A stretch of DNA of 43,951 nucleotides from the NCBI RefSeq assembly GCF_009914725.1, contig NZ_JAAAWJ010000013.1, positions 1-43,951 of the forward strand, in the 5' to 3' direction. The notes below the pieces were generated by a model that was not told the DNA's origin, made no database searches, and worked only from the letters and a program-made list of their open reading frames with translations. Within the stretch, counting starts at the first letter, position 1. Each line of letters begins with the position of its first letter. A program made the position numbers and the translations under genes. Below, in pieces: positions 11,328 to 38,274 of the stretch. The stretch is from Methanogenium sp. MK-MG. GTDB taxonomy: Archaea; Halobacteriota; Methanomicrobia; Methanomicrobiales; Methanomicrobiaceae.

Positions 11328-11345
11328 ATTTATCTGTATCTCTCT

Positions 11346-11639
11346 TTAGGTACGGTAGATTTGGGCATGTGGGACATCCCCTATTCTCATATATCCGTTG
11401 TTATCAAGAATGCCACATTTTATTGCTGTCCTGACTGCTCTTTCTCCGATCAGGTTGCAGTTCGCCGCATGCTCAATTGCAACTGTTACCTCATCTTCTG
11501 TGCGGGGAGTATTGCCGTAGAATGCCTCAGTTACGTGTATGGTAAGATCCCCGTCTGTAAGGGTGGTGTTCAGAAGTTCTCTGTCGCATACCGCAACAAT
11601 GCCACTTACCCCTGAGTAGCGGTGTATCTTCATATACAT
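11346..11639 (-). CDS. DUF424 family protein
   Basis: The conserved core starts MKIHRYSGVSGIVAVCDREL and continues with DLTIHVTEAFYGN, CNLIGERAVRTAIKCGIL and ends VPHAQIYRT, which are DUF424 signatures. Its function is unknown; archaeal DUF424 genes usually sit next to translation genes, as here with NMD3. I chose ATG 11639 (MYMKIHR); the ATG at 11633 is equally possible. No ribosome binding site is visible and an AT-rich stretch lies about 25 nt upstream, so a leaderless message is likely. The longer frame reaching 11747 overlaps the TatD-like gene end and is not supported by similarity. Confidence 0.78.
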   Translation of the reverse strand: MYMKIHRYSGVSGIVAVCDRELLNTTLTDGDLTIHVTEAFYGNTPRTEDEVTVAIEHAANCNLIGERAVRTAIKCGILDNNGYMRIGDVPHAQIYRT

Positions 11640-11686
11640 GATGTATAGTATTTCGCAGGAATGATTAAAAATATGGGGAAAATAGC

Positions 11687-12517
11687 CTATGGGAGTGTTA
11701 TCTCCACACCGTATACCCTGGCGGGAGTTTTTGCATGTATGTTCCATGCGTCATCCTCACTGAATATGCCCTGTTCAAGATATTTCCGGGTATATCGTGG
11801 TACTGATTTCGGGCCGATGACTGCTCCCGGACGGGAGTTGTCATCCATATAGTCACTCTCCATCGTGAACTCAATATGGCTCTCTACCGCTGATGGTATA
11901 CTGTCAAGGCGGGCAAGAAGGGAGGGCATCAGGGGTGTATCCGGCATGCCAAAATGTTTGACCACGCGTTTTGGTGACATGCCAATACGTTTTGCCATAT
12001 CAGCCACATCGCTGCATGGCCCGGTCTCCGCATGTATCTGAAGAGCGCAGTCTGTGTCATGCGCAAGAGAGAGGGCGTGCTGTAAAATACGGTTCGATGT
12101 CTCCCATACATCCGGTTCGACCGGGTAATGCGGGCGCCCGGATTTAAGTGCGACTGCCGTATGTTCCTCCACATATTCCGCTGCAATGTCAAGGCCGCGT
12201 TTCATCACCTCTTCTGCATCAGATACAGACATCCGTTCGGTCAGTCTGCCGATCTCCGCCGGGTGAACGCCGAATATGGGAAAGACCACCACGCCAATTT
12301 CCCGTATGGCTGCGGCTGTCTCAAGGGTGATATCATATACCTCCCTGAACTCGTCTCCGGTTACCGGGTGTATATTGTGAGACCAGGATGGTTTGGTGAC
12401 GAGGAACATGTGGGTGCCGCCCGCCCTGAAAAAATCCTTGGCAGCCTCCGTTCCCCTACCATTCTCCCGGTCAATGTGAATATGGTCGTCAGTTACCGGG
12501 ATGCCCAGTCCGGTCAT
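11687..12517 (-). CDS. TatD-related metal-dependent hydrolase (COG1099-like)
   Basis: The 276-residue TIM-barrel amidohydrolase has the metal-binding sequence in the expected order: DDHIHID near residue 10, FGVHPAEIG near 83, LQIHAETGP near 163, KHFGMPD near 188 and the final acidic ESDYMDD near 222. This is the archaeal TatD-related branch, not a close bacterial TatD DNase; the substrate is unknown. It overlaps MptD upstream by 4 nt (ATGA). Start at the ATG 12517. Confidence 0.83.
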   Translation of the reverse strand: MTGLGIPVTDDHIHIDRENGRGTEAAKDFFRAGGTHMFLVTKPSWSHNIHPVTGDEFREVYDITLETAAAIREIGVVVFPIFGVHPAEIGRLTERMSVSDAEEVMKRGLDIAAEYVEEHTAVALKSGRPHYPVEPDVWETSNRILQHALSLAHDTDCALQIHAETGPCSDVADMAKRIGMSPKRVVKHFGMPDTPLMPSLLARLDSIPSAVESHIEFTMESDYMDDNSRPGAVIGPKSVPRYTRKYLEQGIFSEDDAWNIHAKTPARVYGVEITLP

Positions 12518-20886: not shown

Positions 20887-20992
20887 TTGGTTCTTTTTTG
20901 GGTTCTTGTTTGTTTTTGAAAAAATACCTGAACGCGGACTGGTAGGGATTAAAGATGAATAAGGTTATACACTTACATTAGTGGCAGTTGTT

Positions 20993-22660
20993 ATGGACAT
21001 CAACGCAAGTATTATTGATCAAAGAATTACTGGTATCGTTGAGGACCACCCTGATTGGCTGCCCGATGGTGCTGACATCAATAAAAAGAAATCGGCTGCA
21101 TTTGTAATTTTATGTATGGCCACCTGCCTTGATATCTCTATGGAGGAAGCGGCCGATCTTCTAACTGATGGAGGGAATGATGCCGGTGTTGATGGTCTCC
21201 ATATTGGGGAGGTTGATGACGGAGAATTTTTGGTCACGATTTTTCAGGGAAAGTACAAGACCAAAAACCTGAATGGAGATGCAAATTTCCCGGAAAATGG
21301 TGTTGAAAAAACAGTCAACACTGTTCAGGTTCTTTTTGACCCTTATCGCAAAGTAACATTAAATGAGAAAATTGCTCCAAAAATCGAAGATATCCGCTCA
21401 CTGATTCGGGATGCATACATTCCGAATGTGCGGGTGATTCTGTGCAACAATGGAGCAACCTGGACAAAGCAGGCAGACAACTGGATAAACGAAGCCAAAA
21501 AAGATTATGGTGACAGGGTTGATTTCGTCCATTTCAATCATGATTCAATCGTAAATATTCTCCAACGCAGTAAGAAGGTGGATGCCACCGTAACGATGAG
21601 TGGCCAGGCAATTGTAGAGGATATGAACTATATGCGTGTTCTTGTCGGACGTGTCTCGGTTCAGGAGATTCAGCGACTGTTCAATGACAACGGCGATAAA
21701 TTGTTGGAGCGCAATATCCGCCGTTATCTCGGGCTTCACTCCAACCGTGTAAACACAGCTATTCATGAAACTCTTTGCAATGCAGATAAATCTGACAAAT
21801 TTTATTTCTACAATAATGGTATTACAGTGGTTTGTGACAAATTTGATTACAATGCATTTCAGAAATCCGATTATAAGGTACAAATCAAAAACATGCAGGT
21901 GATTAATGGAGGACAAACCTGTAAAACCATTCAGGAAACACTGAATAATGCGTTACCGAATGGAATAAGTGAGTCCGCGTATGTAATGATCAGGGTTTAC
22001 CAACTGGCAGAAACGCATAAAGAGTTTGTCCGGGATATCACCTACGCAACAAATAGTCAAAATCCAGTAGATCTTCGAGATTTGCATTCCAACGATGAAA
22101 TGCAGAAACAGCTTGAGATCGGAATTTCCGACCTTGGATACGCATACAAACGACAGCGGGAAGAAGGCAGCGGCGGGTCCAATATTATTACCAGTTCAAT
22201 TGTGGCAGAATCTGTATTGGCAATCTGGAGGAAAAGACCTCATCAAGCCAAATTCCGTCGGAAAGAACACTTTGGAAAACTCTATATTGATATTTTCAAA
22301 GATCTGAATGCTGCTCAGGCTTTGTTGGCAGTCCTGATTTTCAGAACCGTTGAAAATCAAAGAAAGCGGCCGGCAGATCCAAATCCTCCTGAATTTCTCC
22401 CATATGCATCGCATTACATATCAATGTTGATTGGTCGTGCCCTGTTAAACGATCAGGATACAAACTTTGGAGACGTTTCTCACCGCAATTTTAAATCCCT
22501 GGTTCAGGCATTTGAGGATGGGCAGGCCAAATATCAAAAGGAGGCTGTTGAACAAATAGCTGAAGCACTGAAAGATTGCTATGGTGACAGGGATATTTCC
22601 CTCCAGCAATTGTCTGCCACATTCCGCCGTGGCGATCTCCTGGAAATGTTGGGGGTTTAG
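20993..22660 (+). CDS. AIPR family abortive-infection phage-resistance protein
   Basis: The 555-residue protein matches the AIPR domain: RNIRRYLGLHSNRVNTAI, FYFYNNGITVVCDKFDY and QVINGGQTCKTIQETLNNA follow one another in the middle (about residues 240-325), as in that family. The N-terminal part has GGNDAGVDGL followed by FLVTIFQGKYK, which resembles the D...Q-x-K core of PD-(D/E)XK nucleases. AIPR proteins are known from lactococcal abortive infection and from defence islands; the activity is usually taken to be nucleic-acid cleavage. The GTG at 20981 is also in frame; I prefer ATG 20993, which has a TATA-like GTTATAC about 25 nt upstream, implying a leaderless message. It stands alone upstream of the BREX operon. 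Confidence 0.85.
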   Translation: MDINASIIDQRITGIVEDHPDWLPDGADINKKKSAAFVILCMATCLDISMEEAADLLTDGGNDAGVDGLHIGEVDDGEFLVTIFQGKYKTKNLNGDANFPENGVEKTVNTVQVLFDPYRKVTLNEKIAPKIEDIRSLIRDAYIPNVRVILCNNGATWTKQADNWINEAKKDYGDRVDFVHFNHDSIVNILQRSKKVDATVTMSGQAIVEDMNYMRVLVGRVSVQEIQRLFNDNGDKLLERNIRRYLGLHSNRVNTAIHETLCNADKSDKFYFYNNGITVVCDKFDYNAFQKSDYKVQIKNMQVINGGQTCKTIQETLNNALPNGISESAYVMIRVYQLAETHKEFVRDITYATNSQNPVDLRDLHSNDEMQKQLEIGISDLGYAYKRQREEGSGGSNIITSSIVAESVLAIWRKRPHQAKFRRKEHFGKLYIDIFKDLNAAQALLAVLIFRTVENQRKRPADPNPPEFLPYASHYISMLIGRALLNDQDTNFGDVSHRNFKSLVQAFEDGQAKYQKEAVEQIAEALKDCYGDRDISLQQLSATFRRGDLLEMLGV

Positions 22661-23388: not shown

Positions 23389-23395
23389 AAGGAGG
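23389..23395 (+). promoter_or_regulatory. strong ribosome binding site that decides an AUU start
   Basis: AAGGAGG matches the archaeal anti-Shine-Dalgarno sequence perfectly. It overlaps the in-frame stop codon TAA (23388-23390) that closes the frame upstream. Seven nt later lies ATT at 23403, in frame with the large ORF; no ATG, GTG or TTG occurs in frame before 23493. Confidence 0.65.
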
Positions 23396-23402
23396 AAATC
23401 TA

Positions 23403-25532
23403 ATTACGTTTATCAATGAGCATGAGGAATTTGAGATTCGGGAGGCAGTTAATTCCTGGAACCGTTTATCGGAGACTCAGGTCAATAAACATGTGGATAA
23501 ATCCGTCCTAAGCTACAACGGTTTGGGGCTGCCAGTTAGGATGCGTCCTTTTTTTAATGCAGAATTTTTGAATCCGGGTGAAAAAATGTGGATTACATTG
23601 ATTCACAAGGATAATGGGATAAAATATAGTTCTTGTATCCGAATGGGGAATCATCTGGATGAAAATCGGCTCTCACCCACGCGCATATATTGGGATGAAA
23701 CCCTTGGCGATCTGATTGATGATCTGATTTCTGATGCCAATGATGGGTTAATATTGATTTTTGTTAAATCTACGTTGGAAAAAAATAAGTATTACATTAA
23801 AATTGAAAAGAGTGAATCACAATCTGAAAATGAACAGTTAAAACGTCCAATTCCAAAGCCTGATAGTCCTGTGCTGCCAGAGATTATCTCTGAAAAATCT
23901 CCGGAAAATATTTTTGATGATTCATTCACAAAACTCAAAGAGGAGGAAGGAACTCATTTCAAGCAGACACATGTAAGAGGATGGGAACCTTTAAAAAATG
24001 AAAATTTGATGAAATCAGGGCATGGAATAATCTTTACGCGAAATAAATTATCTCGTGAACAGGAATTATATACAGAAGTTCTCACGAATCAATTTCCATC
24101 TGGAATTAATCTCAATAATCAGCTTCAGGTCTTCAGGTGCATGGTTGCATTCAAGAAGGCCTTTTCTGAAAATTATAACGAAGAATGGATTGGCGATTAC
24201 GATCAATTTATCAAAGGGATTATAGAGATAACTGTTGCATGTGATGAAACGACACGGTTGTCGATCACATCATTGGATGCTTCAGATTCCTTACTGAATG
24301 AGATACTTGTTCAGGTAAATACTCTTTTTGAGTCAGGAGAAGTGATTGTTTCTTCTGATGAACTTTATATCAAGTTTAAGCAAAGGTTACTCCAAACAAA
24401 TATTTACAACTCCACTACATTAGAGAATGTTGTTAGATACTATATGAGGGGTAAATACAATTTCACTGATGGTTATATCTGTTCCCAAAAATTGTCAAAC
24501 CTGGATAGTTATATTTTTGACAGGGTATTAGCAACACTTCGGAAATTTTCCGGCCAAATGTCTCATAAGGAACTCATACATACACTCCCCCATTTTCCTG
24601 ATGAAAAAATTAGAGACTGCCTTAATAGTTCCTCTAAAGTTATCCGAGGAAAAAAAGGATATTATACCCATATCGATTGCTTTGATATTACGTTGCAAGA
24701 TAAGGAGTTACTCCTTACAACTATTACTGAAAATATGCAAGATAATGTGATAACCACTGCAGGTCTCTTCGATGCATATATGGCAATTAACCCTGATTTC
24801 TTTGATCGAAACCTCATAACAGATATTGTAACACTTGGTGACATTTTCAAGTATTGTTATCCATCAAAATATATCTATAAACGTGGCCAGATAATTTTTG
24901 GTGGTGGATCAATTCTCAGTTCAACCGAGAAGGTGATACGTCATCTCATGTCGATGAGATCTTTCACATACCGAGATATGGAGGAATTCGAAGATTCAAA
25001 TCATTACAATGTTGCTTGTCGGGGAGTTCTCAAACCAATCTTAAAAAAATATTTCCGTCTTGATGAAAATCGGTTTATTTCAATCGATCAGCTAGATATT
25101 TCCGAAAACGTATTAAACGAAATTGAAAATTTGCTCATGGATGAACTGCAAACAGGGTATGTCTGTTCTGCGAATATCAAAAATTATCTATCATATCCGT
25201 ATGTCGAATCCAATCCATGTACCCCATATCTTCTTGAGAGTATTATTAGGATTTACGGCAGCAAATTCAGATGCCCATTGAAGCTCATCGAATATTATAC
25301 TGGCTGCAAAAAACCCAGAGGGATTATTGTTATTGCGGACTCGGATTTTAAAAATTATACGGATATCCTGATAGATGTTCTAAAAAAGCAGAACAACCGG
25401 GAACCATTCAAGAATCAAATGGAAGCAATAGAATATCTTAAAGAAATAAATTATATGCAAACTGCCCCACGAGATGGATTATCAGGGATCTACTCCAAAG
25501 CGATTGCTAAATACGAATATTTTGGTATATAA
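23403..25532 (+). CDS. unknown large protein, first gene of the BREX-type operon (apparent AUU start)
   Basis: I do not recognise this protein of about 709 residues. The frame opens at 23391 and its first standard start is a GTG at 23493, without a ribosome binding site. The 30 codons before that GTG (ITFINEHEEFEIREAV...) read like protein and follow a perfect AAGGAGG, so ATT 23403 is the likely start. The first 130 residues are beta-rich (MWITLIHKDNGIKYSSCIRMG). A charged linker follows. The second half has repeated helix-rich blocks with tyrosine-ended hairpins (VIRGKKGYYTHID, KYIYKRGQIIFGGG, DENRFISIDQLD) that look like tandem winged-helix modules. Its stop abuts the BrxP ATG with no gap, so it is almost certainly co-translated and part of the system. 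A DNA-recognition or regulatory role is inference. Confidence 0.72.
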   Translation: MTFINEHEEFEIREAVNSWNRLSETQVNKHVDKSVLSYNGLGLPVRMRPFFNAEFLNPGEKMWITLIHKDNGIKYSSCIRMGNHLDENRLSPTRIYWDETLGDLIDDLISDANDGLILIFVKSTLEKNKYYIKIEKSESQSENEQLKRPIPKPDSPVLPEIISEKSPENIFDDSFTKLKEEEGTHFKQTHVRGWEPLKNENLMKSGHGIIFTRNKLSREQELYTEVLTNQFPSGINLNNQLQVFRCMVAFKKAFSENYNEEWIGDYDQFIKGIIEITVACDETTRLSITSLDASDSLLNEILVQVNTLFESGEVIVSSDELYIKFKQRLLQTNIYNSTTLENVVRYYMRGKYNFTDGYICSQKLSNLDSYIFDRVLATLRKFSGQMSHKELIHTLPHFPDEKIRDCLNSSSKVIRGKKGYYTHIDCFDITLQDKELLLTTITENMQDNVITTAGLFDAYMAINPDFFDRNLITDIVTLGDIFKYCYPSKYIYKRGQIIFGGGSILSSTEKVIRHLMSMRSFTYRDMEEFEDSNHYNVACRGVLKPILKKYFRLDENRFISIDQLDISENVLNEIENLLMDELQTGYVCSANIKNYLSYPYVESNPCTPYLLESIIRIYGSKFRCPLKLIEYYTGCKKPRGIIVIADSDFKNYTDILIDVLKKQNNREPFKNQMEAIEYLKEINYMQTAPRDGLSGIYSKAIAKYEYFGI

Positions 25533-27905
25533 ATGTACAAATATGAATGGGATCCAGAAACAGGTGGATATCTACTTACAACAACTTCTGAGAGTACTGT
25601 TGGAAAAGAACTCAGGCCGGTATATTCTTCTGAATTGGATTTACTTGGATTTGATGAATATTGGACTTATCCAAGAGATGATACAAAACCTTTGCTCTGG
25701 GCAGAAAATAACCTCTATTATTATTTAGGAAGAGTCGTTGGTAAAACGAGTGGTGGAAGCCTCTATAATCGACCCACACTAAAAATTATCGAGGATGGAT
25801 TGGAATTAACCTTTGTAGATATACCGCTAATGGTGAAGAAAAATCGTGTCATAATGGATGCTCTTGTTCATGACACACTTCTCACGATTTATACTACATA
25901 TCATCAGTTCAAAAATAGAATTGATATTTTTTACGTTGCATTCAGTGGAGGAAAAGATTCAATCGTCGCACTTGATTTAGTACATCGAACTCTTCCAAAA
26001 AATGAATTTCTGGCCTTGTTTGGAGATACAGACATGGAACTTCCAGATACCTATTTGTTTATGGAAGTTATCCGGAAGTATTACAGCGACATCTCATTTC
26101 ATGTGGCTCGTGCTGAAATATCCTCTGTTGAGTCTTGGAAGATCTTTGGTCCACCAGCACGTGGAATCCGCTGGTGTTGCAGTGTGCATAAGACAGCTCC
26201 ACAAATCCGGTATTTACGTAATTTATTCCAAAAACCAAACGTTAGAGGGATGGCTTTTACGGGAATTCGGGCAGAAGAAAGTAATGCCCGTTCCTCATAT
26301 GATATGGTGAGTGTCAGTAAGAAGCACCCTGGACAGGCAAGTTGCCATCCAATTCTTCAATGGAATTCTGCAGAACTTTACCTATATATCTATGGAAATA
26401 ATCTCCCTCTCAATGAAGCATATAAAAAAGGGAATTCGCGTGTAGGTTGTCTATTATGTCCAATGTCAGGAGGGAAACATGAGTTCATCAAAATGTCTTG
26501 TTATCCCGGCGTGATGACAAAGTACCTGGACATAATCAAGAATACCAGTTCAAAAACCTTTGATCGATTATCTGATATGGATCACTTCATAGAAGATGGA
26601 GGATGGAAAGTACGTCGTTCTGGACGTGAACTAAAAATTGGTACAAACCTCGTTGAAGTGGTAAATACTAAAAAAGAACTACGAATCACCACCAAAGGAC
26701 CGGCAGATGACTGGAAGGAATGGATAAAAACACTTGGGGAGTTCTGTCAGATAGAAGAGAATTGCTATCTTGTAACATATAATGGTGCAACATATCGCTT
26801 TACTGTTACCGAAAATGAGAATCAGTCCCTGGAAGTGGTTTTACCACTAATTGGGGGAGGAAAAAGTGAGATATATTTTGTATCACTGTTCAAAAATGTC
26901 TTTCGCAAAGCTGCCTATTGCAGAAGATGCGGAGTATGTGTTGCAGAATGCAAGTTTGGGTGTATCACCATGGGCCCAGACTCAACAAAAATTGAAAGCA
27001 GTGAATGCAAGCACTGTTGTCAATGCCTTAAGATAGATTACGGATGCTTATTATGCTCCTCAATTAAATTACCTCTAAGCAAAGGAAATGAAAAAATGGC
27101 TGGAATGGATAGATACATGACATTTGGATTCCGGAAAGAATGGCTTGATTCATATTTCAAAGATCCTGATCAATTCTGGGATCATAATGATTTAGGAAGT
27201 AAGATGGTTCCGGTATTCAAAAAATTTTTACGGGATGCGGGTATTGTCTCTGAGAAAAGAGATCTTACAATTACCAGGACAGGACAACTGCTCAGGACTA
27301 TTGGTTCTGATTCTGAGGCCACATGGGCAATTATTCTGATTAATCTCTCATATACTCCTCAAATAGGGTGGTATGTAAAAAATATTATTCCTGGTACCAT
27401 TTATACAATGCAAGATCTCAAGGCGCTCCTTCCCGAAGATATCAAAGACACAGTGAAACGTAATATTGTGAGTGCTTACCGTAATATTATGGTACAGACA
27501 CCGCTTGGAAGCCAGATTGGACTTGGTCACCCCCAAAAATCCGGTTCAAACGTAAAATCTGTGGAGAGAATAAAATGGGAACATCCAATTCCTGAAGTAA
27601 TATTATATGCCTTCTACAGATATGCAGAAGAAAATATTCAGGAAGATAATAGTATTCATGACAATGATAACTACCGGTTTACGTTAACTGAGATCTTATC
27701 AGAAGATCCAGACATTTCCGGATTGAGTCCCTCACAGATTTTTGATATCGATAGAGATACATTCAGGCATATTCTGGAAGGATTGTCTATAGAGTATTCA
27801 GAGTATATTTCAACTTCGTTTACCCATGATTTAGACAATATTGTCCTTTCTCCAAATAAAACATCAGCAGAGGTACTTGAACTCGTAATGACGGAGATAA
27901 TATAA
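25533..27905 (+). CDS. brxP: BrxP-like phosphoadenosine phosphosulfate reductase-family protein (BREX type 4)
   Basis: The 790-residue protein has an N-terminal domain (1-130), then an ATP-pyrophosphatase PP-loop SGGKDS (138-143), followed by WCCSVHK (214-220), GIRAEES (244-250), CHPI (271-274) and CLLC (306-309): the nucleotide and Fe-S ligands of the PAPS-reductase/DndC superfamily. A second cysteine-rich region, CRRCGVCVAEC (463-473) and CKHCCQC (492-498) with C505 and C508, looks like an 8-Cys ferredoxin-type cluster pair. The C-terminal 280 residues are helical and not recognised. In type 4 BREX this protein stands where PglX methyltransferase occurs in type 1, and it may mark host DNA by sulfur chemistry, as DndC does; that is family inference. 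Its stop overlaps the start of the ATPase gene by one base. Confidence 0.85.
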   Translation: MYKYEWDPETGGYLLTTTSESTVGKELRPVYSSELDLLGFDEYWTYPRDDTKPLLWAENNLYYYLGRVVGKTSGGSLYNRPTLKIIEDGLELTFVDIPLMVKKNRVIMDALVHDTLLTIYTTYHQFKNRIDIFYVAFSGGKDSIVALDLVHRTLPKNEFLALFGDTDMELPDTYLFMEVIRKYYSDISFHVARAEISSVESWKIFGPPARGIRWCCSVHKTAPQIRYLRNLFQKPNVRGMAFTGIRAEESNARSSYDMVSVSKKHPGQASCHPILQWNSAELYLYIYGNNLPLNEAYKKGNSRVGCLLCPMSGGKHEFIKMSCYPGVMTKYLDIIKNTSSKTFDRLSDMDHFIEDGGWKVRRSGRELKIGTNLVEVVNTKKELRITTKGPADDWKEWIKTLGEFCQIEENCYLVTYNGATYRFTVTENENQSLEVVLPLIGGGKSEIYFVSLFKNVFRKAAYCRRCGVCVAECKFGCITMGPDSTKIESSECKHCCQCLKIDYGCLLCSSIKLPLSKGNEKMAGMDRYMTFGFRKEWLDSYFKDPDQFWDHNDLGSKMVPVFKKFLRDAGIVSEKRDLTITRTGQLLRTIGSDSEATWAIILINLSYTPQIGWYVKNIIPGTIYTMQDLKALLPEDIKDTVKRNIVSAYRNIMVQTPLGSQIGLGHPQKSGSNVKSVERIKWEHPIPEVILYAFYRYAEENIQEDNSIHDNDNYRFTLTEILSEDPDISGLSPSQIFDIDRDTFRHILEGLSIEYSEYISTSFTHDLDNIVLSPNKTSAEVLELVMTEII

Positions 27906-30900
27906 TGGGCAATGATATGACCAACATTTTATATGATAATTTTTTTGATATTGACCCAAATTATTTCCCCATGATGACAGAAGAGCTCATCAAATCTGAA
28001 GATGGGAAATGGAAAGGATTCTATCCACATGAAAAATTTGTCGAATTAATTAAACATACCGTAAATACACTCAATCGTCACGAAAAACAATCCCTCTGGG
28101 TCACAGGGTCATATGGGACAGGAAAATCACATGCAGTTTTAACGATAAAATGTATGCTTGAAGCGAAAAAAGAGGATGTAACCGAGTATTTTGAGAAGAA
28201 TGATCTCGATATGGACCTCTGCAGTCGTCTTAACAACCTAAAAGGACAAGGGCATATTCTCACCGTGTACCGGAATGGATCGGAAAGTATTGACTCAACA
28301 GCAGCTCTTACTCTTGCAATTCAGAGCAGTATCAAAAAGGCACTGAAAGAGCAGGGTATTAAAAATAACTCAAATATTACATTAAAAGAAACAATTGTCA
28401 ATAGATTAACTACAAAAGAAATTTATTCAAATTATATCGACAAATTGATGCAGGAAAAATACAATTATCTCTTTTCACCCTATTCTGATGTTACAAGTTT
28501 TCTTGAGGCAATTAAAAACCCTGATGATGAAAAATCAAATCAGCTCATCAATAAATATCTCGATATGCTCAATATGGAGGGGATAAGCGGACATCCAATC
28601 GAACCAAATGACTTAGTTCGGTGGATTGATGAAGTTATCAAGGCAAATAATTTAACTTCTATTTTCTTTATCTGGGATGAATTTACTGAATTTTTCAAGA
28701 TTAATCAAAATAAACTCACAGGTCTTCAGGAAATTGCGGAATCTACACAACATATGCCATTTGTTCTGATGCTGGTTACCCATATTTCCGGAAAACAATT
28801 GCCATTAGGTGATTCCAAAAAAATTTCAGATCGCTTTGCTCCCCCAATTGAGATAAGTCTCCCAGATAATACCGCGTTTAAACTCATGGGGAAAGCACTT
28901 GCAGTAAAGGATAATCAGGAGGTCCGTTCACAGTGGCAAACCCTTAGAAGTGAACTTTGGAGTAACGTATGCAATTCTGGCAAGCTCGTTATCAGATCAA
29001 CAAATAATAAAGTGACAGAAAATGATTTTAAGGAAATATTACCGTTCCACCCATATGCAGCTCTTATTCTTAAACATCTTTCCGCCCGTTTCAACTCCAA
29101 TCAAAGAAGTATGTTCGAGTTCATAAAAGGAGGGGAAACAGAATCAGAATCCATAAGTTTCAAGTCATTTATTCACCAAACCGGACCTTTCTCCCCCATC
29201 CCGTATCTTACCTGTGACAAATTATGGGATTACTTCTACAGTAGTGACAAAGCCAGATTAGATACGGAACTTAAGGATTTATTGAACACATACAATATTC
29301 ATAAGGACAACAAGGCATTTGATTCAGATACATTGTTGATCTTAAAAACAACCCTGCTTCTTCAGGGTCTTTCAAATCAAGCATGGAATGTCCCGATACT
29401 GAAGCCAACACTGAATAATTTGACATATGCCTTTGAAGGAACCGATCTCGCAAAAGTTCGAATAGAACAGATCCTTATGATTCTCATAGAAAAGGGTGTT
29501 TTATCTTCACATCCCGGCAAAAATGGAGAACTGGAATATGTCGCTCTTCGTGCTAACAGTGACACTGCGGTGATCAGTCAGTTAATACAGGAAATTTCAA
29601 AAAAATATACAACGCTGGAACTTATTCAAAAGAACAATGATATCGAAAAGGTATTTGAATTACCTGAGGAACTCTTTCTTCGGTATGAATCATCATATTT
29701 AACGACCACCAACATTGACGTTGCGTTAAAACGGAAAGTGAATATTCCTCCAAACAAAATCCGATTGTTTTTCACCTTTGCTAAAGATGATCAGGAAGCA
29801 AGCATCATTAATGAAAAAATCCAGAATTTCCTATCGACAGGTCTGGATTCAGGAATAATTATTGTAGACACGTCATTATCTTCGCTTAAATCCAAAAATT
29901 ATGATGACATTGTTGAGTGTCTGGCAAATGTGCGTTACTGGAAAGATAAGAATATTTCAAAACAAGTTATTGCATTTGAAAGTCGGGTAAATGATATAAT
30001 TACTCAATGGAATAATGAACTCATAAATGGAGTCTTCGTTCTCTATGATGCTTCCCATAATGGACAGAAATTCTATAGTTTTGATTTACTTACCAAGCAA
30101 CTAAGGCAGATCAATGAAGAACGTTTCCCGAAAGGGATTGAACGTCTTTCCAACTCGAAGACATTGCGTTCTATACAGCAATCAAAGAATGGAGCAATTA
30201 TGGCAGCATCTGGTGGTGAAAAACCATCAGGAAGGTTTAATGCTCTTGCCCAGCCTCTTTCTGAGATTTGGACTGATAATAATTATTGGGAGCACACACC
30301 AGATCATCTCTTATCACAGATTAAAAATGATCTTAATATTTTCATGGATAAGAGGTTTACCAAAGATGGAAAGGCAGATATATATGATATATGGAACTTC
30401 CTGACACGTCCGCCCTATGGATTTCTCCCATGCAGTTTGAGTGCTTTTGTTCTTGGTTTCCTTCTTCGGGAATATGCAAATGACCAGTATACCTGGTCTA
30501 ACGGTTCAATAGCAGAGCCAATGTCAGCTGAAAAGCTTGGAGAACTCGTAGATGGTGCCATAAAATCTACGCATGGAACCCGGCCGTCTTCTCGATATAT
30601 TGTACAAATGACTGAGGAAGAAAAAGAATTTATGAACTCTTCTGCGTTCGTATTCAATGTTTCTCACGTCCAGTGTACCTCAATTGAAAATACCCGTAAC
30701 AAGATCATCAATGCAATAAAAGGACTTCAGTATCCACTTTGGGCATTAAATAACTATATCGATTCACAAAATACCACACAAAAAGATGTTCTCAAAAGTA
30801 TCATTGATGATTACTGTTCTATTTCAAGTAGTTCTCCGGATGCTAAACAGATTGTTAAAACAAAAGTTAATTCAATTGGGAAAGCATTTCAGCAACATGC

Positions 30901-32095
30901 TGGTTTGAGCAATGCTGTCCGGGATCTAATCACGCCCAAAAACACAAGAGAAGGCATGGATCTCTATGTTCAGGTCACGTATCCGGACTTAATTACAATT
31001 GCACAATCACTGAATGATAACAATTATCTTGAGGCCATTAAGAAAAGATTCAGTGCGGATAGTGCCTGGTTGTGGTGCAGCGATGACATCGATAATGCAA
31101 TCATGGAAGTTGTCAGTGATTACCGGATTTTTGATTCAAGTAATCATTTCATTGGCACGAAAACATCAATCCAGGATGTAATTAGGGAGTGGAGTAATAA
31201 ATTAAATGAGATCCGTCTTCCTTTTGATATTATCTTGTCCTCCGAGGAACAGTTAACAAAACCACTCACCATGCTCTTTAACATGTGTAAGACAAAAGCA
31301 CTCTCATCTTCCGATAAAAAGGAACTGAGTGATGCGTTACAGTCATACAAAATAGAGTTGGATGAATTTTTTTGTTCTGACACTCAAATCAGAATATTCA
31401 ATGAGAAATTTTATGATAAATTCGCCAATCTAAGTATGGATCAAATTCAGGAGTTGTATTTATCTCTTCCAAGGGGGCAGATTTATCAGTCAAAAATAGA
31501 ATATGAGCAGCGTGTTGCGACTAAAATTGAAGATCTTCGCTGTGTTCAGCTCTATCAGCATCTGGAAAGTGAATGGTATAGAATATCCGGAGAAGTGGAT
31601 CCAAAAGTATGGTCTAACAAGTATGAACTGCCGATACTGTATCTTTTCGATGATGAACCAGGAAAAGCAAGAGACCTTTGTTCTATTCTATTAAATAAAG
31701 GGTCCAGCGATGAATCAAAAATAGAGGACGCAATGGAGTTCCTCAACACCTGTCCTGACTTTGCAAAGATTACAGATACGGAGTATATCCATAAGGTATT
31801 CCAGAAAAAAATACTCCGGGATTACGAGTATGTAATTGAATCAGAGAATATTCCTTCACTCATTTTAGAGTTAAAGTCTAAAGTCGATGAAAATATTTAC
31901 TCATGGGCTGACAAAAGAGCTCGGGTAGATGAGGTGGTGAAGGACTTTGCAAAAGAATCATATCGTAATTCTGGATTTATGAAAGCATTCGCAAAGATTG
32001 ATAATATGCCCCCGGATGATGCAAAAAATTATCTCAAAGATCTTATCAAAAACGATCTGCAGGTAGGTATTGCAATCATCAGGCGTTTGGAATAA
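27905..32095 (+). CDS. brxC: BrxC/PglY-type P-loop ATPase of BREX
   Basis: The 1396-residue protein has Walker A GSYGTGKSH (68-76) and Walker B FFIWDEFTEFF (254-264), each as in the large BrxC/PglY ATPases (about 1200-1400 residues). The rest is a long alpha-helical body with coiled-coil-prone stretches. In BREX this ATPase is needed for host marking and phage exclusion, probably as an oligomer on DNA. Start ATG 27905 overlaps the BrxP stop (TAATG). The gene ends 24 nt before pglZ. Codon use is AT-rich like its neighbours and unlike the flanking core genome. Confidence 0.87.
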   Translation: MGNDMTNILYDNFFDIDPNYFPMMTEELIKSEDGKWKGFYPHEKFVELIKHTVNTLNRHEKQSLWVTGSYGTGKSHAVLTIKCMLEAKKEDVTEYFEKNDLDMDLCSRLNNLKGQGHILTVYRNGSESIDSTAALTLAIQSSIKKALKEQGIKNNSNITLKETIVNRLTTKEIYSNYIDKLMQEKYNYLFSPYSDVTSFLEAIKNPDDEKSNQLINKYLDMLNMEGISGHPIEPNDLVRWIDEVIKANNLTSIFFIWDEFTEFFKINQNKLTGLQEIAESTQHMPFVLMLVTHISGKQLPLGDSKKISDRFAPPIEISLPDNTAFKLMGKALAVKDNQEVRSQWQTLRSELWSNVCNSGKLVIRSTNNKVTENDFKEILPFHPYAALILKHLSARFNSNQRSMFEFIKGGETESESISFKSFIHQTGPFSPIPYLTCDKLWDYFYSSDKARLDTELKDLLNTYNIHKDNKAFDSDTLLILKTTLLLQGLSNQAWNVPILKPTLNNLTYAFEGTDLAKVRIEQILMILIEKGVLSSHPGKNGELEYVALRANSDTAVISQLIQEISKKYTTLELIQKNNDIEKVFELPEELFLRYESSYLTTTNIDVALKRKVNIPPNKIRLFFTFAKDDQEASIINEKIQNFLSTGLDSGIIIVDTSLSSLKSKNYDDIVECLANVRYWKDKNISKQVIAFESRVNDIITQWNNELINGVFVLYDASHNGQKFYSFDLLTKQLRQINEERFPKGIERLSNSKTLRSIQQSKNGAIMAASGGEKPSGRFNALAQPLSEIWTDNNYWEHTPDHLLSQIKNDLNIFMDKRFTKDGKADIYDIWNFLTRPPYGFLPCSLSAFVLGFLLREYANDQYTWSNGSIAEPMSAEKLGELVDGAIKSTHGTRPSSRYIVQMTEEEKEFMNSSAFVFNVSHVQCTSIENTRNKIINAIKGLQYPLWALNNYIDSQNTTQKDVLKSIIDDYCSISSSSPDAKQIVKTKVNSIGKAFQQHAGLSNAVRDLITPKNTREGMDLYVQVTYPDLITIAQSLNDNNYLEAIKKRFSADSAWLWCSDDIDNAIMEVVSDYRIFDSSNHFIGTKTSIQDVIREWSNKLNEIRLPFDIILSSEEQLTKPLTMLFNMCKTKALSSSDKKELSDALQSYKIELDEFFCSDTQIRIFNEKFYDKFANLSMDQIQELYLSLPRGQIYQSKIEYEQRVATKIEDLRCVQLYQHLESEWYRISGEVDPKVWSNKYELPILYLFDDEPGKARDLCSILLNKGSSDESKIEDAMEFLNTCPDFAKITDTEYIHKVFQKKILRDYEYVIESENIPSLILELKSKVDENIYSWADKRARVDEVVKDFAKESYRNSGFMKAFAKIDNMPPDDAKNYLKDLIKNDLQVGIAIIRRLE

Positions 32096-32119: not shown

Positions 32120-34465
32120 ATGAATTATCAAACATACGAAGAAATCTTTGAAAGAATTACCCAATTGCCAGCAACAAGATCAGAAACGATCATTGTGAAT
32201 GTTAATTCCTATGAGAATTACATGAATCTTGTTAATAATTTTTTAGATACAAAACAGGTTCAATTAAGTGATTATGTCAAAGGGGATCAGTATCCTGATC
32301 TATTGCGGTGCTATGCAGAACTGGAGGAAAGCAAGAATACTACTCTTGTATATGGCTTTTCACAACATATGATGATGATCTCCGAGAAAGAACGTCGGAA
32401 GATCTTGTCAAATATATTACATAATATCCAGTTATCTACAAATCAACTACATAGAGTCATTTTTCTGTTTTACCAAATGCAGAATGTTCTGGTGCAAAAG
32501 ATTGATGATGATCTGCGGTTAAATGAGCGAATCTTTCTGTTAAACGATGTTCCATCCAATCCAACTGGAAAAGTAATCTTTGTTTCAAATACTGTAGAGA
32601 TTGAATCATCAAATTATGAAAGGATCTTCCATGATTACAACCAATATTTGCGGGAAGTAGAAAGCAATCCAGCAAAGGATATTACCGTTGTCACACAATT
32701 TACGCATGACCCATACTCCGAGCGACGTATACAGGTTACGCTGATTCCATCAGCATATAAGTACCTTGTTGTCAAAAAACAGTTCCCTCAGAGTATCTCT
32801 GAGTCGGTTGGAACTGCAGATAATTGGCAAACTCTGGTAAAAGATACCAAGGGAGTTACATCTGTAACTACATATTTTTCATCCATTTTCAAAGACAAGA
32901 TATCAATCTCCCTTTTGGGAGAATGGAATGATCTTGAAAGCCCTCAGAAAAAATGGTATGCCTGGCTTCATATGAAGCTGCTGTCCCTCAAAAATATCAA
33001 TGATATCGATCAGACCAGTTGTTTTGAAGAATATCTCCCGTATGTGTTGAGTCTGAGTAATTCTGTTGATGCATTTATTCATGAATATTATTTTGGGATA
33101 CTAAAGATATCTCCAAATGAACCCTGTTATCAAAAATATTATAGTGAGAGAAAAAAAGGATTGAAGTATCTAAATAATAACCTTACTCTCAGTGAATATT
33201 GTGAGGTAGTCAGTCATTATGGCGAGGAGATGATTTACTATCTCACCGATACCTCCGATTATGAGAAAAAACTTATTCTTGAATGGATTTCCGGAAAGTC
33301 TTCATTTGATCCAGAGACTTCGGGACTTATCGAGTTAATCTACCCTGATCTATGGATTTATCTTAAAGAATATTCCGTTCCTTTGGACATTCCGGATTCT
33401 GATCTTTATACAAAATATTTTCAGGCGTATAAAGAACAAAAAGTTCAAAACAGACTTGATCCACTGTTTTGTGAAAAAGTAAACACTATTGCAAATGGGG
33501 TGGAGAGGGAACGCCCATATTACCGTCTCTCAACCCGTGAGGCAGCCTTTGAAAAACTTGATATTCAGAATACACCTGTTTATTTTATCGATTGTCTCGG
33601 GGCAGAGTATCTGAGTTTTATTGAAGCCTTTTGCGATAAAAATGGATTATCTTGCTCTGTACAGCTTGTAATTGCCAGAGTTCCAACAGAAACAGAGTAT
33701 AATACCGAATTCAGGAATAAAAATGGAGTAGACTTGACAGAAATGCGTGAGTTAGATCAACTCAAGCATAAAGGAATTGAAACATGTTCTGGTGATAATC
33801 CAAATCTCCCCTATTATTTGATTAAGGAATTGGATATCCTCCAAAAATACCTTTACTCAATCCTTCAAACTCTTCAAAGAAATCAAAAAGTAGTGATTGT
33901 GACAGATCACGGTTCCTCACGGTTGTGTGTCCTGAGTAAACAATCCTGCAATAGTGATTTTTCATATGACGGGGATGCGAATAATGCTAAAAGAAGATAC
34001 TGTGAAAATATGGTTGGTGACATATCTAACCCCTATTTACTCAGAGATGGGAAGTACAGTGTTTGGGCAAATTATAACCAGTTTACTGTCCGTGGGGCCC
34101 CTCCAAAATGGGAACTGCATGGAGGGGCGACTATTGAAGAAGTTGTCATTCCGCTCATTGAAATCTCTAAAGACATTACAAAAATCAAACTTATCTGCAA
34201 GACCCATGAGATCAAGCTCAAAGTTGATCAGAGTCCAATAATAGAGTTTGTCACAATTCCAAAATGTCAGAGTGTCGTCCTTATTGTTGAGAAAGAAACA
34301 TATCCATGTAATACATCTGATAACGGATCCGAATGGGCATGCACCTTACCTAAAGATATCAAGACGGGAACATACACTGCAATCGTGAGAACAAATGAGA
34401 AAAATGTGGGTGAGCTTTCCTTCTCAATCACAAAAGGACTCAAAAAGAAATCATTTGATTTGTAA
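32120..34465 (+). CDS. pglZ: PglZ, alkaline-phosphatase-superfamily BREX protein
   Basis: PglZ is the marker protein of BREX. The 781 residues have an N-terminal helical region and then the alkaline phosphatase-type core: YFIDCLGAEYLSF (488-500, with D491 a likely metal ligand), a later VVIVTDHGSSRL (591-602) with D596 and H597, and a C-terminal histidine in WELHGGATIEEVVIPL, the usual third metal site of this superfamily. These three positions in this order support an intact metal centre. The C-terminal ~100 residues are a beta-sandwich-like tail. In BREX, PglZ is needed for protection; recent work in other types suggests nuclease or phosphodiesterase activity. It lies between brxC (24 nt) and brxL (13 nt). 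Confidence 0.88.
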   Translation: MNYQTYEEIFERITQLPATRSETIIVNVNSYENYMNLVNNFLDTKQVQLSDYVKGDQYPDLLRCYAELEESKNTTLVYGFSQHMMMISEKERRKILSNILHNIQLSTNQLHRVIFLFYQMQNVLVQKIDDDLRLNERIFLLNDVPSNPTGKVIFVSNTVEIESSNYERIFHDYNQYLREVESNPAKDITVVTQFTHDPYSERRIQVTLIPSAYKYLVVKKQFPQSISESVGTADNWQTLVKDTKGVTSVTTYFSSIFKDKISISLLGEWNDLESPQKKWYAWLHMKLLSLKNINDIDQTSCFEEYLPYVLSLSNSVDAFIHEYYFGILKISPNEPCYQKYYSERKKGLKYLNNNLTLSEYCEVVSHYGEEMIYYLTDTSDYEKKLILEWISGKSSFDPETSGLIELIYPDLWIYLKEYSVPLDIPDSDLYTKYFQAYKEQKVQNRLDPLFCEKVNTIANGVERERPYYRLSTREAAFEKLDIQNTPVYFIDCLGAEYLSFIEAFCDKNGLSCSVQLVIARVPTETEYNTEFRNKNGVDLTEMRELDQLKHKGIETCSGDNPNLPYYLIKELDILQKYLYSILQTLQRNQKVVIVTDHGSSRLCVLSKQSCNSDFSYDGDANNAKRRYCENMVGDISNPYLLRDGKYSVWANYNQFTVRGAPPKWELHGGATIEEVVIPLIEISKDITKIKLICKTHEIKLKVDQSPIIEFVTIPKCQSVVLIVEKETYPCNTSDNGSEWACTLPKDIKTGTYTAIVRTNEKNVGELSFSITKGLKKKSFDL

Positions 34466-34478
34466 GGAGAATTAAGCC

Positions 34479-35915
34479 ATGGAAAATAAGTTGCGGACAG
34501 TTTTTTCAGATATGGTCGTATATAAGAATCTCAAGGAGAGCAATTACTTCTCTGACCTCAGTATACCTTCCTTTTTACGGGATTGGATCATGCAGGAATA
34601 CTCCGATGATGAGGGAAAGATTGACTATGAGGTTGTTGGAAGACAGATAAAACGGTTATATCCCCAAAAAGATGAATGGCTTTCGATCAAAGATCGAATT
34701 ATTCAGGGAAATGAGTCTGTAAAAATTCTTACGAGAATCAGTGTGGATATTGACATCTCTACCAATGATATTACATTCTCTCTTCCAATTTACGATCTAC
34801 ATAATAAATTAACATTGATTGAACCATGGATATGGGATACCTATAAGGATGAACTATTGGTTTCTAAAGAGATATGGGGTATTGTTGAACTGGGATATTT
34901 ACCGCCCGGAGACAATAAAAAAGATGGGAAAATCATCTTAAAGAGTTTCCAGAACTTCTGTCCTTATGAAATTGATTTGGAATATTATAAGGAGGCGCGG
35001 AAAAACTTTACGATAGATGAGTGGATTGACGTTCTTCTTGGAGCAATTGATTACAATCCCTCAGGATATAAAGACAGTATTGAAAAAAGGACAATGCTTT
35101 CCCGCCTTCTGCCTTTTACAGAGAAACGTGTCAATATTGTGGAGTTGGCACCAAAAGGTACGGGGAAATCTTACCTCTTTGGAAGATTAAGTAAGTATGG
35201 CTGGCTAGCATCCGGTGGGAAGATGAGCCGGGCAAAAATGTTTTATGATCTTCAGAAAAAAACGACCGGCCTGGTTGGTTCATATGATTATATTGCATTT
35301 GATGAGGTGCAGACAATTTCTTTTTCTGATCCTTCTGAAATGAAGGGTGCACTCAAGGGATATCTTGAAAGTGGTGAGTGTTCTGTTGGCGATAAAAAAA
35401 TTGTAGGCAAAACTGGAGTTATCCTTCTTGGAAACATCGATATGAATGACATGGATGTAAATTGTGATATGTTTCGCTCTCTTCCAGGGGTTTTCTATGA
35501 GAGTGCACTTATTGATAGATTCCATGGTTTTATTGCCGGGTGGAAAATTCCTCGAATGAATGAGGATCTTAAAGCACAAGGATGGGCACTAAACTCTGAG
35601 TATTTCACAGATATTCTTCATCAGTTGCGTGATGACCTGAGTTATCGTGCGATTGTAAATGATCTAGTTATTGTCCCCCCCCAGTCTGATACCCGGGATG
35701 TAGAGGCAATTAAACGTTTGTGTACTGCTTACATCAAGCTCTTCTTCCCTCATATCCATCAGGCATCAGATATTAGTATGTTCGATTTTATGACCTATTG
35801 TCTTAAGCCTGCCATAGATATGAGAACGATTATTAAGAGACAGTTAGCTATAATTGACCCAATTGAATTTGGTAAAAAAGGAGTTCCATATCTTTCTGTG
35901 AAGGATTGTGCATGA
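34479..35915 (+). CDS. brxL: BrxL, short form without Lon protease domain
   Basis: The 478-residue protein has the BrxL AAA+ core: VELAPKGTGKSYLFGR (Walker A, 222-236), YIAFDEVQTI (Walker B, 271-280), GVILLGNIDM (sensor 1) and ALIDRFHGFIAGWKIP (arginine-finger region). BrxL of type 1 is about 650-700 residues and ends in a Lon-like domain with a Ser-Lys dyad; nothing like that is present, and the gene ends with a helical lid region. Type 4 BrxL is generally short, so this is probably normal, not a truncation. A good ribosome binding site (AAGGAGA) precedes the ATG. BrxL proteins of other types form large ring ATPases that bind DNA. Its stop overlaps the next small gene. Confidence 0.85.
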   Translation: MENKLRTVFSDMVVYKNLKESNYFSDLSIPSFLRDWIMQEYSDDEGKIDYEVVGRQIKRLYPQKDEWLSIKDRIIQGNESVKILTRISVDIDISTNDITFSLPIYDLHNKLTLIEPWIWDTYKDELLVSKEIWGIVELGYLPPGDNKKDGKIILKSFQNFCPYEIDLEYYKEARKNFTIDEWIDVLLGAIDYNPSGYKDSIEKRTMLSRLLPFTEKRVNIVELAPKGTGKSYLFGRLSKYGWLASGGKMSRAKMFYDLQKKTTGLVGSYDYIAFDEVQTISFSDPSEMKGALKGYLESGECSVGDKKIVGKTGVILLGNIDMNDMDVNCDMFRSLPGVFYESALIDRFHGFIAGWKIPRMNEDLKAQGWALNSEYFTDILHQLRDDLSYRAIVNDLVIVPPQSDTRDVEAIKRLCTAYIKLFFPHIHQASDISMFDFMTYCLKPAIDMRTIIKRQLAIIDPIEFGKKGVPYLSVKDCA

Positions 35916-36112: not shown

Positions 36113-36371
36113 TCTATGTCAACGCCGGGTCAATTTTCTACAATATTACTTCAACGTTACTATGAGTTCACCAGTAACCCCATCACATTTTTTCGCGAGA
36201 TCGAATCTGATTTTTGAACGGTGTTCCTGACATCAGATCCGGACGTAAGCATAGATGCATCACATTGGATCATGGAGGAGACGATACGGGGTGTGTCAGC
36301 ATAAATCTGAGCATTCAAATCCATATCTTCATCGTAAACAGCCCACAACATCTTCACCTGGACGAAACCCC

Positions 36372-37529
36372 ATGGAAATATCATCCCTACGCACAATCAA
36401 CGCAATTCTCGAACATGATGCAAAGGACGCGTCATACAAGTATGCTCTTATCCGGGGGACAATTGATGTCTGTCAGAAATATTCCCATCGAAAAGAGGAG
36501 GCCGATGGAAGGGTTTTCTACCCTCTGGGTTCTCTGGTCGAAAGCTGGGTGCTCTACTATTACCCGATCATTGCCTCTCCTGAGTTTATTCCCCAGCGAA
36601 GTGGTGAATCGGAAGAGAGCGCCGGAGGCCGACAGATTGTATTCCGGCCCGCATTTAAGACCGTGACCGATTACTATCAGGACAAGGGAGGGTTCTCTGC
36701 CTTTTGGAATGAATACCGCAGAGGGGAGCTGCCGGAGGAGATATCGGCTGATGTAATGGCTCTCTTCAAAAAAATTCGGGAGACTATCGTTGCCTTGCCC
36801 ATGAAATACATTGGACGTTCGCTGTCTGATGCGTATTATTCAATATATGGATATGACAAGCAGGGTATCCGGATTCAGAATGATGCATATCCTGACCCGG
36901 TATGTATTCAGGAGAATTTCGGTGTCTTTGATATTCCCTCAGATATGTGCCTGGCGTTTGAGTACTTTGGGAGTTTTATCAGCGGGGAGGAATCCATTCT
37001 CAAAGACTGGACGGATTTTTCTCATGATAAAAGCACAAAATCTGTTCAAAAGGCACAGATTTTCGCTCTACTCACAAAAGTTCCGGAAACTGAACGGGCA
37101 GTTGGTTTTGCACGGATGGTCTACCAGAATGCCTTCAGGGAAGGCCCTCTGGAATGTGTCTGGTCCGGAAAGAGGATCCCGGATAGCACCCGGATGCATG
37201 TTGATCATATGCTCCCCTTTGCCCGGTGGAAGAATAACGATCTCTGGAATCTGCTCCCTGCCCTGGACACGGTGAATGGAAATAAAAGTGATCAAATTCC
37301 GTCCCGGAGTCTCCTTGAGAAAAGAGAAGACGTCATCACATACTACTGGAATCAGCTCCATCAGGAATATCCTGCACAGTTTGAAAGGGAGGTTACCCTC
37401 TCGCTCTTAGGGAAAAAGCCTGAAGGACGGGAAAACTGGAAGGAAGAAGCGTTTGCAAACCTCCTGCAAAAAGCAGATTATCTTATTGACGTCCGGGGCT
37501 ATGAATCGTGGGAGTGTACTGAAGTCTGA
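36372..37529 (+). CDS. HNH endonuclease domain protein
   Basis: The 385-residue protein starts MEISSLRTINAILEHDAKDASYKYAL and ends with a clear HNH motif: a strand with LECVWSGKRI, then HVDHMLPFARW (the catalytic HxDH with a preceding His), NNDLWNLLPAL (the N) and NGNKSDQIPS (the second H replaced by N/K in this version, common in defence-type HNH). It lacks a DNA methyltransferase partner. The sequence is more GC-rich than the BREX genes, so it may be a separate insertion. Start: ATG 36372, as the longer open frame to 36255 has no similarity. The 259 nt after the BREX zinc protein hold no gene I can support. Confidence 0.8.
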   Translation: MEISSLRTINAILEHDAKDASYKYALIRGTIDVCQKYSHRKEEADGRVFYPLGSLVESWVLYYYPIIASPEFIPQRSGESEESAGGRQIVFRPAFKTVTDYYQDKGGFSAFWNEYRRGELPEEISADVMALFKKIRETIVALPMKYIGRSLSDAYYSIYGYDKQGIRIQNDAYPDPVCIQENFGVFDIPSDMCLAFEYFGSFISGEESILKDWTDFSHDKSTKSVQKAQIFALLTKVPETERAVGFARMVYQNAFREGPLECVWSGKRIPDSTRMHVDHMLPFARWKNNDLWNLLPALDTVNGNKSDQIPSRSLLEKREDVITYYWNQLHQEYPAQFEREVTLSLLGKKPEGRENWKEEAFANLLQKADYLIDVRGYESWECTEV

Positions 37530-37578: not shown

Positions 37579-38274
37579 TCACAGAATTTCCTGACACTCC
37601 CGAACGAGGTGGTATATATTCTCTTCAAGTCTTTTTTGTGCCTGCTTGTCTTTTGGATGCCATGATGCCATATTGGCACCAGATGGATGGGGAAGGTGGT
37701 ACAGGCGAATGGTTTGATCCACAAGATCGTCACCCTTCCTCTCAAACCATCGCTCCACATCTTTTCCCAGTGTGACAATGAACCGGATATTTTCGCGGCT
37801 AGCTGATTCAATTTCAGAACACAACCACCGGTCTGCACAGGAGTATGCGTTTCTCGGTCTGAACTTCAATGAAGCCTCCCCCCGTTTGTCTGTGCAGCAT
37901 TTGTGGAGGTGCGTCCAATAGACAGAATGATAAAGCGTATCCCTGAATGTATTCAGCTCTTCATCGGAGAGTGCGCCCTGCATGTACCTCTGGTTGAATG
38001 ATTTGATGCGAGTGAATGTCCACCGGGGGATGGCATTGGTGTCAAAGAGAAGCTCCCGCCACAAAGAAAGGCTCCTTGATTTCGCATCGGTATAGTAGGG
38101 AATAAATGCAGTTGTTGGGTCCCTTGATATGATGATTCCGGCAAATGGATGGTTTTGCGGGGGAGGGACCCATACTGCGGGGATATCAGAGAGTCCTTTG
38201 AGTTCACACTCATCCGGGCATGCATCGGATTTGTTCATTGTCATGCATATTTTAACATGCTCATCGAAACTCAT
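37579..38274 (-). CDS. uracil-DNA glycosylase-superfamily-like protein
   Basis: The 231-residue protein has an N-terminal cysteine pair (CPDEC, 19-23), and HPFAGIIISRDPT near residue 42 as in motif 1 of family 4/5 UDGs. Its C-terminal half carries RFIVTLGKDVERWF and LYHLPHPSGANMASW, whose HPSG resembles UDG motif 2 (HPS). Usual family 4 enzymes remove uracil from DNA and hold an Fe-S cluster, but the spacing here differs, so the catalytic activity is unproven. UDG-like proteins also occur in defence islands. It is convergent with the HNH gene, about 50 nt apart. A long open frame on the opposite strand looks like a shadow. Confidence 0.72.
   Translation of the reverse strand: MSFDEHVKICMTMNKSDACPDECELKGLSDIPAVWVPPPQNHPFAGIIISRDPTTAFIPYYTDAKSRSLSLWRELLFDTNAIPRWTFTRIKSFNQRYMQGALSDEELNTFRDTLYHSVYWTHLHKCCTDKRGEASLKFRPRNAYSCADRWLCSEIESASRENIRFIVTLGKDVERWFERKGDDLVDQTIRLYHLPHPSGANMASWHPKDKQAQKRLEENIYHLVRECQEIL

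Follow-up and report, generated by a model that had tools for sequence, protein, structure and literature searches.

A six-winged-helix protein encoded directly ahead of brxP, a candidate DNA-recognition component of BREX type 4

Introduction

How BREX type 4 (BREX-4) systems pick the DNA that they mark with sulfur or block is an open question. In these systems the methyltransferase is swapped for BrxP and DNA phosphorothioates are made, and the parts described are BrxC, BrxP, PglZ, BrxL, an SspB-like DUF4007 that is often fused to BrxP, and often a cysteine desulfurase (PMC12839542, PMC11931770). The SspB-like DUF4007 has been regarded as the DNA-scanning part (PMC12839542). The main texts of these two BREX-4 descriptions mention no gene ahead of brxP (PMC12839542, PMC11931770). 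Such a gene opens the BREX operon in a 43,951-nucleotide stretch of the Methanogenium sp. MK-MG genome (contig NZ_JAAAWJ010000013.1; here called the window), raising the question of what its product contributes to the system. The protein is a candidate answer to how the DNA is chosen, as it probably directs the system to its sites of action on DNA.

The BREX-4 operon and its first gene

The operon belongs to BREX type 4, as brxP with a PAPS-reductase domain, brxC, a type-4 pglZ and brxL lie in one operon, all four core genes being in the order of brxPCZL (Table 1). Genes for MCM, RFC and NMD3 within the window are those of an archaeal-type genome. No methyltransferase (PglX) was matched in the operon with Pfam, PADLOC or NCBIfam. 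An earlier reading, made from the sequence alone, had suggested that the protein was perhaps the missing target-recognition part of a system lacking PglX. In that form the idea is not supported: PglX is replaced by BrxP, which carries both PAPS-reductase and DUF4007 domains, and since the window BrxP has its DUF4007, no modification part is missing from this BREX-4 system.

Table 1. Features of the BREX-4 operon and its surroundings, in window positions
Feature	Position	Strand	Basis or remark
AIPR/AbiU-like protein gene, 5' of the BREX operon	20981..22660	+	PADLOC AbiU 2e-52
Shine-Dalgarno AGGAGG, 7 nt ahead of the ATT start	23390..23395	+	sequence
B3-like and six-winged-helix gene, 709 aa, first gene of the BREX-4 operon	23403..25532	+	ORF, operon position
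B3-like (EcoRII-N type) domain, aa ~14-136	23442..23810	+	predicted; AlphaFold2 pLDDT 82.9; Foldseek
Linker, aa ~137-206, mostly predicted disorder	23811..24020	+	pLDDT <50, model residues 1-69
Winged helix 1 (boundaries approximate)	24054..24263	+	DSSP order in AlphaFold2 model
Winged helix 2	24285..24482	+	AlphaFold2 model
Winged helix 3	24501..24671	+	AlphaFold2 model
Winged helix 4	24693..24899	+	AlphaFold2 model
Winged helix 5	24921..25082	+	AlphaFold2 model
Winged helix 6	25104..25334	+	AlphaFold2 model
C-terminal helical tail	25356..25520	+	AlphaFold2 model
brxP: PAPS-reductase, 4Fe-4S ferredoxin-like cysteines, DUF4007	25533..27905	+	PADLOC BrxP 1.1e-243; Pfam PAPS_reduct 6.8e-32
DUF4007 of BrxP, from aa ~520	27090..27902	+	DUF4007 profile built in this analysis
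brxC	27905..32095	+	PADLOC BrxC 1.2e-170
pglZ, BREX-4 type	32120..34465	+	NCBIfam NF033445 1.3e-98, above cutoff
brxL	34479..35915	+	TIGR02688 5.1e-128, above cutoff
424-aa protein with Cas9-like HNH domain, 3' of brxL	36255..37529		candidate accessory part of the island
Uracil-DNA glycosylase-like gene, 3' of brxL	37579..38274	-	candidate accessory part

The upstream gene most likely starts at the ATT at 23403, with an in-frame TAA just 5' of it, and reads as 709 codons and a stop. Its first ATG, GTG or TTG is the GTG at 23493 (679 aa); ATT is preferred because the GTG would remove the beginning of the B3-like domain. What looks like an ATT start behind a perfect Shine-Dalgarno sequence is rare. 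The reading frame is real. Its stop, TAA at 25530-25532, runs straight into the ATG of brxP at 25533, which is read in the same direction; as had been noted earlier, no spacer separates the two genes. The frame is no chance one, since a 77% identical copy stands in the same place, ahead of a 90% identical brxP, in a genome of the same family, and since it recurs before brxP in 49 loci (see below).

As the sequence-only reading had suspected, the protein falls outside the familiar BREX families. It had no match in NCBIfam and PADLOC and only sub-threshold noise in Pfam and PHROGs, and a comparison of the gene with plasmids also gave no match. Known component lists of BREX-4 omit it, and neither PADLOC nor NCBIfam has a model that suits it; it is a new component of a known system, absent from the component lists and family libraries consulted.

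Predicted structure

The N-terminal domain and the C-terminal core were modelled separately with AlphaFold2, because a joint alignment misplaced the homologues of the N-domain. The core model, built from 46 sequences, had a mean pLDDT of 84.6 (398 of its 571 residues score at least 90), and the order of helices and strands assigned by DSSP is that of six winged helices followed by three helices. The tandem winged helices surmised earlier for the second half of the protein are thus borne out by a high-confidence prediction together with Foldseek. The sixth unit contains the most conserved stretch, with the family consensus FP..G..WNxFLLES. The top Foldseek matches of the core in the PDB were all proteins with winged helices in tandem, namely the C-terminal part of SelB, UFL1/DDRGK1, Dcc1, RNA polymerase III subunits and TFIIE, the nearest solved fold being winged helices 1-4 of SelB (1lva; E 2.4e-5). 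These form the RNA-binding part of a translation factor, whereas the window core has six units and no GTPase. Winged helices in general bind RNA and protein too. Sequence searches of the PDB with the core and with the N-domain returned noise only.

Winged-helix or HTH arrays are likewise found in BrxA, DUF4007 and SspB, proposed DNA scanners of BREX or Ssp systems; these, however, have two to three units against six in the window core, and a variable N-terminal array of the window type is not theirs. We also considered the core as a divergent DUF4007/SspB and rejected this, given an hhalign probability of 1.5% and six winged helices rather than a tripartite HTH-wHTH-wHTH arrangement.

The N-terminal domain, modelled from 10 sequences, is predicted to be a seven-stranded pseudobarrel of the B3-like DNA-binding fold. 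Foldseek matched it to 3hqf, 7et6 and 6j9c with probability 1.00; the matches comprise DNA-bound EcoRII-N, plant B3 and UbaLAI B3 (probability 0.9-1.0), with a best E of 2.5e-3, which is not overwhelming. The other matches were fluorescent-protein sensors of low probability. Sequence identity to EcoRII-N/B3 domains is only ~12%, and in EcoRII the N-domain is joined to a PD-(D/E)XK nuclease, while that of the window protein is joined to a winged-helix array. In related archaea the B3-like domain also stands at the head of a McrB-type GTPase, of NOV_C nucleases and of HNH nucleases, some of which have type IV features. It is at this N-terminal end that McrB-type, HNH and NOV_C enzymes place their DNA-reading domain. 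The McrB-type GTPase headed by a window-type B3-like domain (L171:1441-3204, genome G066) is a candidate type IV restriction enzyme.

Distribution across BREX-4 loci

Searching for related loci with the window protein alone found nothing because the family is too divergent, and a search based on brxP succeeded. An archaeal profile built from five members matched five times in 394 genomes of the archaeal phylum, each time directly ahead of brxP. Public genomes were then scanned for brxP, which gave 80 loci, and these were scored with an iterated profile of the ~465-residue C-terminal core. A core homologue ends directly ahead of brxP in 49 loci, the window included, from archaea and many bacterial phyla; the share of the gene among all BREX-4 systems is not readable from this number, since the loci were drawn by similarity to the window BrxP. 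The distance from the end of the core gene to brxP is -17 to +60 nt in 47 of the 49, and 127 and 270 nt in the other two. Upstream frames at three further loci (L118, L120 and L137) match the core weakly. An insertion sequence within brxP was the reason why one locus (L012) was initially scored as lacking the gene. There (L012:10634-14352, genome G029) a 375-aa transposase lies at 10970-12097, with a second copy at 7317-8444, and the winged-helix gene ahead of the split brxP is intact. At another locus (L081:2173-7968) tandem paralogues of 1364 and 564 aa precede a single brxP. The single phage match, a record titled 'Bacteriophage sp.' (MT835511.1, L221), has the entire BREX-4 cassette, winged-helix gene included, next to ppdK- and recO-like genes; it is probably bacterial DNA.

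When 56 BrxP proteins were placed in a tree, all 43 members of one deep clade proved to be accompanied by the gene. Of the 13 loci in the other clade, 11 lack it and two have only a weak match. Presence of the gene requires two changes on this tree, against 12.6 in shuffled labels, and none of 500 shuffles was as low. Whole-genome searches found one copy in each of eight gene-bearing genomes and none in a ninth, whose BREX-4 system lacks the gene. The six-winged-helix core is a BREX-4 orthologous family, defined by core homology and by its place directly before brxP, and the constant neighbour and the single orthologous clade uphold the view that the gene is part of the BREX system. In 6 of the 11 gene-less loci a second, free-standing DUF4007 is encoded between brxP and brxC, the DUF4007 of BrxP notwithstanding (L121:10288-11019, L124:10337-11140, L126:7303-8103, L127:10392-11171, L135:10354-11154 and L039:14219-14773).

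Variable N-terminal arrays

The part ahead of the constant core ranges from nothing (five loci, core only) to 883 residues, and the largest proteins of the family reach 1364 aa. It is made of recurrent modules, many of DNA-binding type, that differ in order and number between loci: the tryptophan-rich helical module A at the N-terminus, module Q, which resembles integrase core-binding domains (22 proteins, 37 matches), module P (16 matches) and the rarer HARE-HTH (two proteins) and alpha-CTD with sigma-4 (two proteins). Modules A and P have no assigned function. The B3-like domain is carried by the window protein and its relative. Even close loci, with BrxP 80-86% identical, bear unrelated arrays. 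In the archaeal loci L012/L016 and the bacterial loci L117, L100, L101 and L096 the BrxP proteins are 77-86% identical across phyla and the cores remain 61-75% identical, while the arrays, of 33, 112, 274, 148 and 108 residues, have no recognisable similarity. None of 36 arrays of BREX members had a nuclease match, and the idea of arrays as nuclease effectors was rejected.

By analogy only, this resembles HsdS, where likewise a variable recognition part sits on a constant dock and the gene stands beside the modification gene; here, too, the N-terminal parts change while the remaining operon stays. The present family differs in being an array of small modular domains, and no HsdS target-recognition domain was matched by Pfam in the window protein and the arrays; the role as a subunit of this kind is a prediction.

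Relatives outside BREX

In the class Clostridia, to which one host belongs, 21 of 291 genomes had core matches. Five are BREX-4 loci (375-578 bits), and the remaining matches (28-270 bits) represent a distant family of the same core whose N-terminal modules are different, namely RNA polymerase alpha-CTD and sigma-70 region 4. These proteins are mostly found outside BREX, and several are encoded singly among housekeeping genes. For two of them (L214:5862-13646 and L217:1758-10597) the gene is a further member of the candidate defence operon PDC-M33A/B/C, beside a C5 cytosine methyltransferase, and PADLOC has no model for this protein. Another, of 1334 aa with alpha-CTD repeats, sigma-4 and the winged-helix core, has a gene that overlaps pbeA, in a Pbe/Dnd operon for phosphorothioation made up of pbeA, pbeC/dndD-like, dndB and dndC genes (L218:4945-15999, genome G692).

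A branch with 100/100 support in the tree of cores has 43 BREX-4 members together on one side, and two BREX-4 loci (L097 and L102) have recruited the alpha-CTD type. Whether homologues occur mainly outside BREX, on which the proposed membership had been made to depend, thus has a divided answer: all five archaeal matches adjoin brxP, whereas the distant clostridial relatives lie outside BREX. As the latter fall beyond the 100/100 branch, the orthologous family is not refuted as a BREX part, and it is the wider superfamily that is not confined to BREX.

Co-divergence with other Brx proteins

Among loci with BrxP at 60-70% identity, the median identities are 70% for BrxL, 47% for BrxC, 41% for PglZ and 32% for the core. 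Over 409 locus pairs, which are non-independent and carry no p-value, core identity correlates by rank with that of BrxC (0.74) and PglZ (0.72). In these non-independent pairs the correlation of the core falls to 0.04 with DUF4007 and -0.08 with PAPS when BrxC and PglZ are allowed for, and that with BrxC remains 0.54 when DUF4007 and PAPS are allowed for. This favours a core that would dock on BrxC/PglZ rather than on the PAPS or DUF4007 parts of BrxP.

BrxP itself is mosaic-like, its first ~120 residues tracking BrxC and the remainder not. Between L105 and L086, and between L088 and L123, these residues are 80-83% identical, like BrxC and BrxL, and the PAPS, Fe-S and DUF4007 parts are 38-61% identical. 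Possibly the catalytic and scanning parts of BrxP have been exchanged; since BrxP is the odd one out in these pairs, the clearest cases, a simple gene swap is not claimed from the discordant identities.

Role of the winged-helix protein

On balance we favour the protein as the DNA-recognition subunit of the BREX-4 subtype that carries it, in which the constant core docks and the N-terminal array reads DNA. The core of six winged helices would anchor the protein in a BrxC/PglZ/BrxP complex and on DNA, and the exchangeable part, a single B3-like domain in Methanogenium sp. MK-MG, would read sequence or modification state. The subunit would position the sulfur-transfer machinery of BrxP and/or the PglZ/BrxL restriction arm at the chosen sites. 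We infer DNA binding, docking on BrxC/PglZ and the choice of sites for modification or attack from the predicted folds and the comparison of loci. The further step, that interchangeable arrays on a constant dock make a modular specificity subunit, so that swapping the array would re-target phosphorothioation and/or restriction, is put forward tentatively. That the protein sets the phosphorothioation target is plausible, and unproven in view of the DUF4007 of BrxP, the core-only systems and the gene-less systems. The same three observations argue against it as the sole recognition part, and because of the five core-only and 11 gene-less loci target choice cannot rest solely on this protein in every BREX-4.

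It is also conceivable, if rather unlikely, that the protein serves the restriction arm only, its array detecting features of phage DNA or unmodified sites and licensing PglZ/BrxL, with the DUF4007 of BrxP alone picking the modification sites. The SspB-like DUF4007 already present in BrxP (PMC12839542) would suit such a division of labour, as would a core identity that tracks BrxC and PglZ rather than PAPS/DUF4007, the B3-like domain at the head of type IV-like restriction proteins, and the fastest evolution among the components, as expected of an arms-race sensor. Against this, the gene is constantly ahead of brxP, the modification gene, and one relative adjoins a Dnd/Pbe phosphorothioation operon in which dndB and dndC are genes for modification.

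In other BREX types the BrxR regulators combine a winged helix with a WYL domain. The first position in the operon, the many helix-turn-helix type modules, and distant relatives that carry alpha-CTD and sigma-70 region 4 or lie alone among housekeeping genes might suggest a transcription regulator of the operon that stands outside the BREX machine. We consider this improbable, as the protein reaches 1364 aa, has no ligand-sensing WYL domain in Pfam, is encoded directly next to brxP, diverges together with BrxC/PglZ and is strictly dedicated to one BREX-4 clade. The chance is smaller still that it is a scaffold standing in for a second DUF4007 or BrxA-like scanner, with the core as a sequence-neutral DNA anchor and arrays that add affinity alone. 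The extra DUF4007 genes in gene-less loci and the core-only versions could be explained in this way, but the diversity of the arrays would lack purpose and the DUF4007 and core profiles have no similarity by hhalign. A hitch-hiking gene without a tie to BREX, for which members of the wider family outside BREX might speak, is contradicted by the present data, namely by the 49 loci in archaea and many phyla of bacteria where it adjoins brxP, by the single orthologous clade and by a perfect match to one BrxP clade.

With the DNA-recognition subunit as the favoured reading, the winged-helix gene divides BREX-4 into two deep subtypes, one with and one without it. The design of a constant core and a variable array makes recognition testable through array swaps. 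If the proposal is true, phage defence would gain a new type of modular specificity component, and the protein's Dnd/Pbe-adjoining relative would link it to Dnd-type phosphorothioation.
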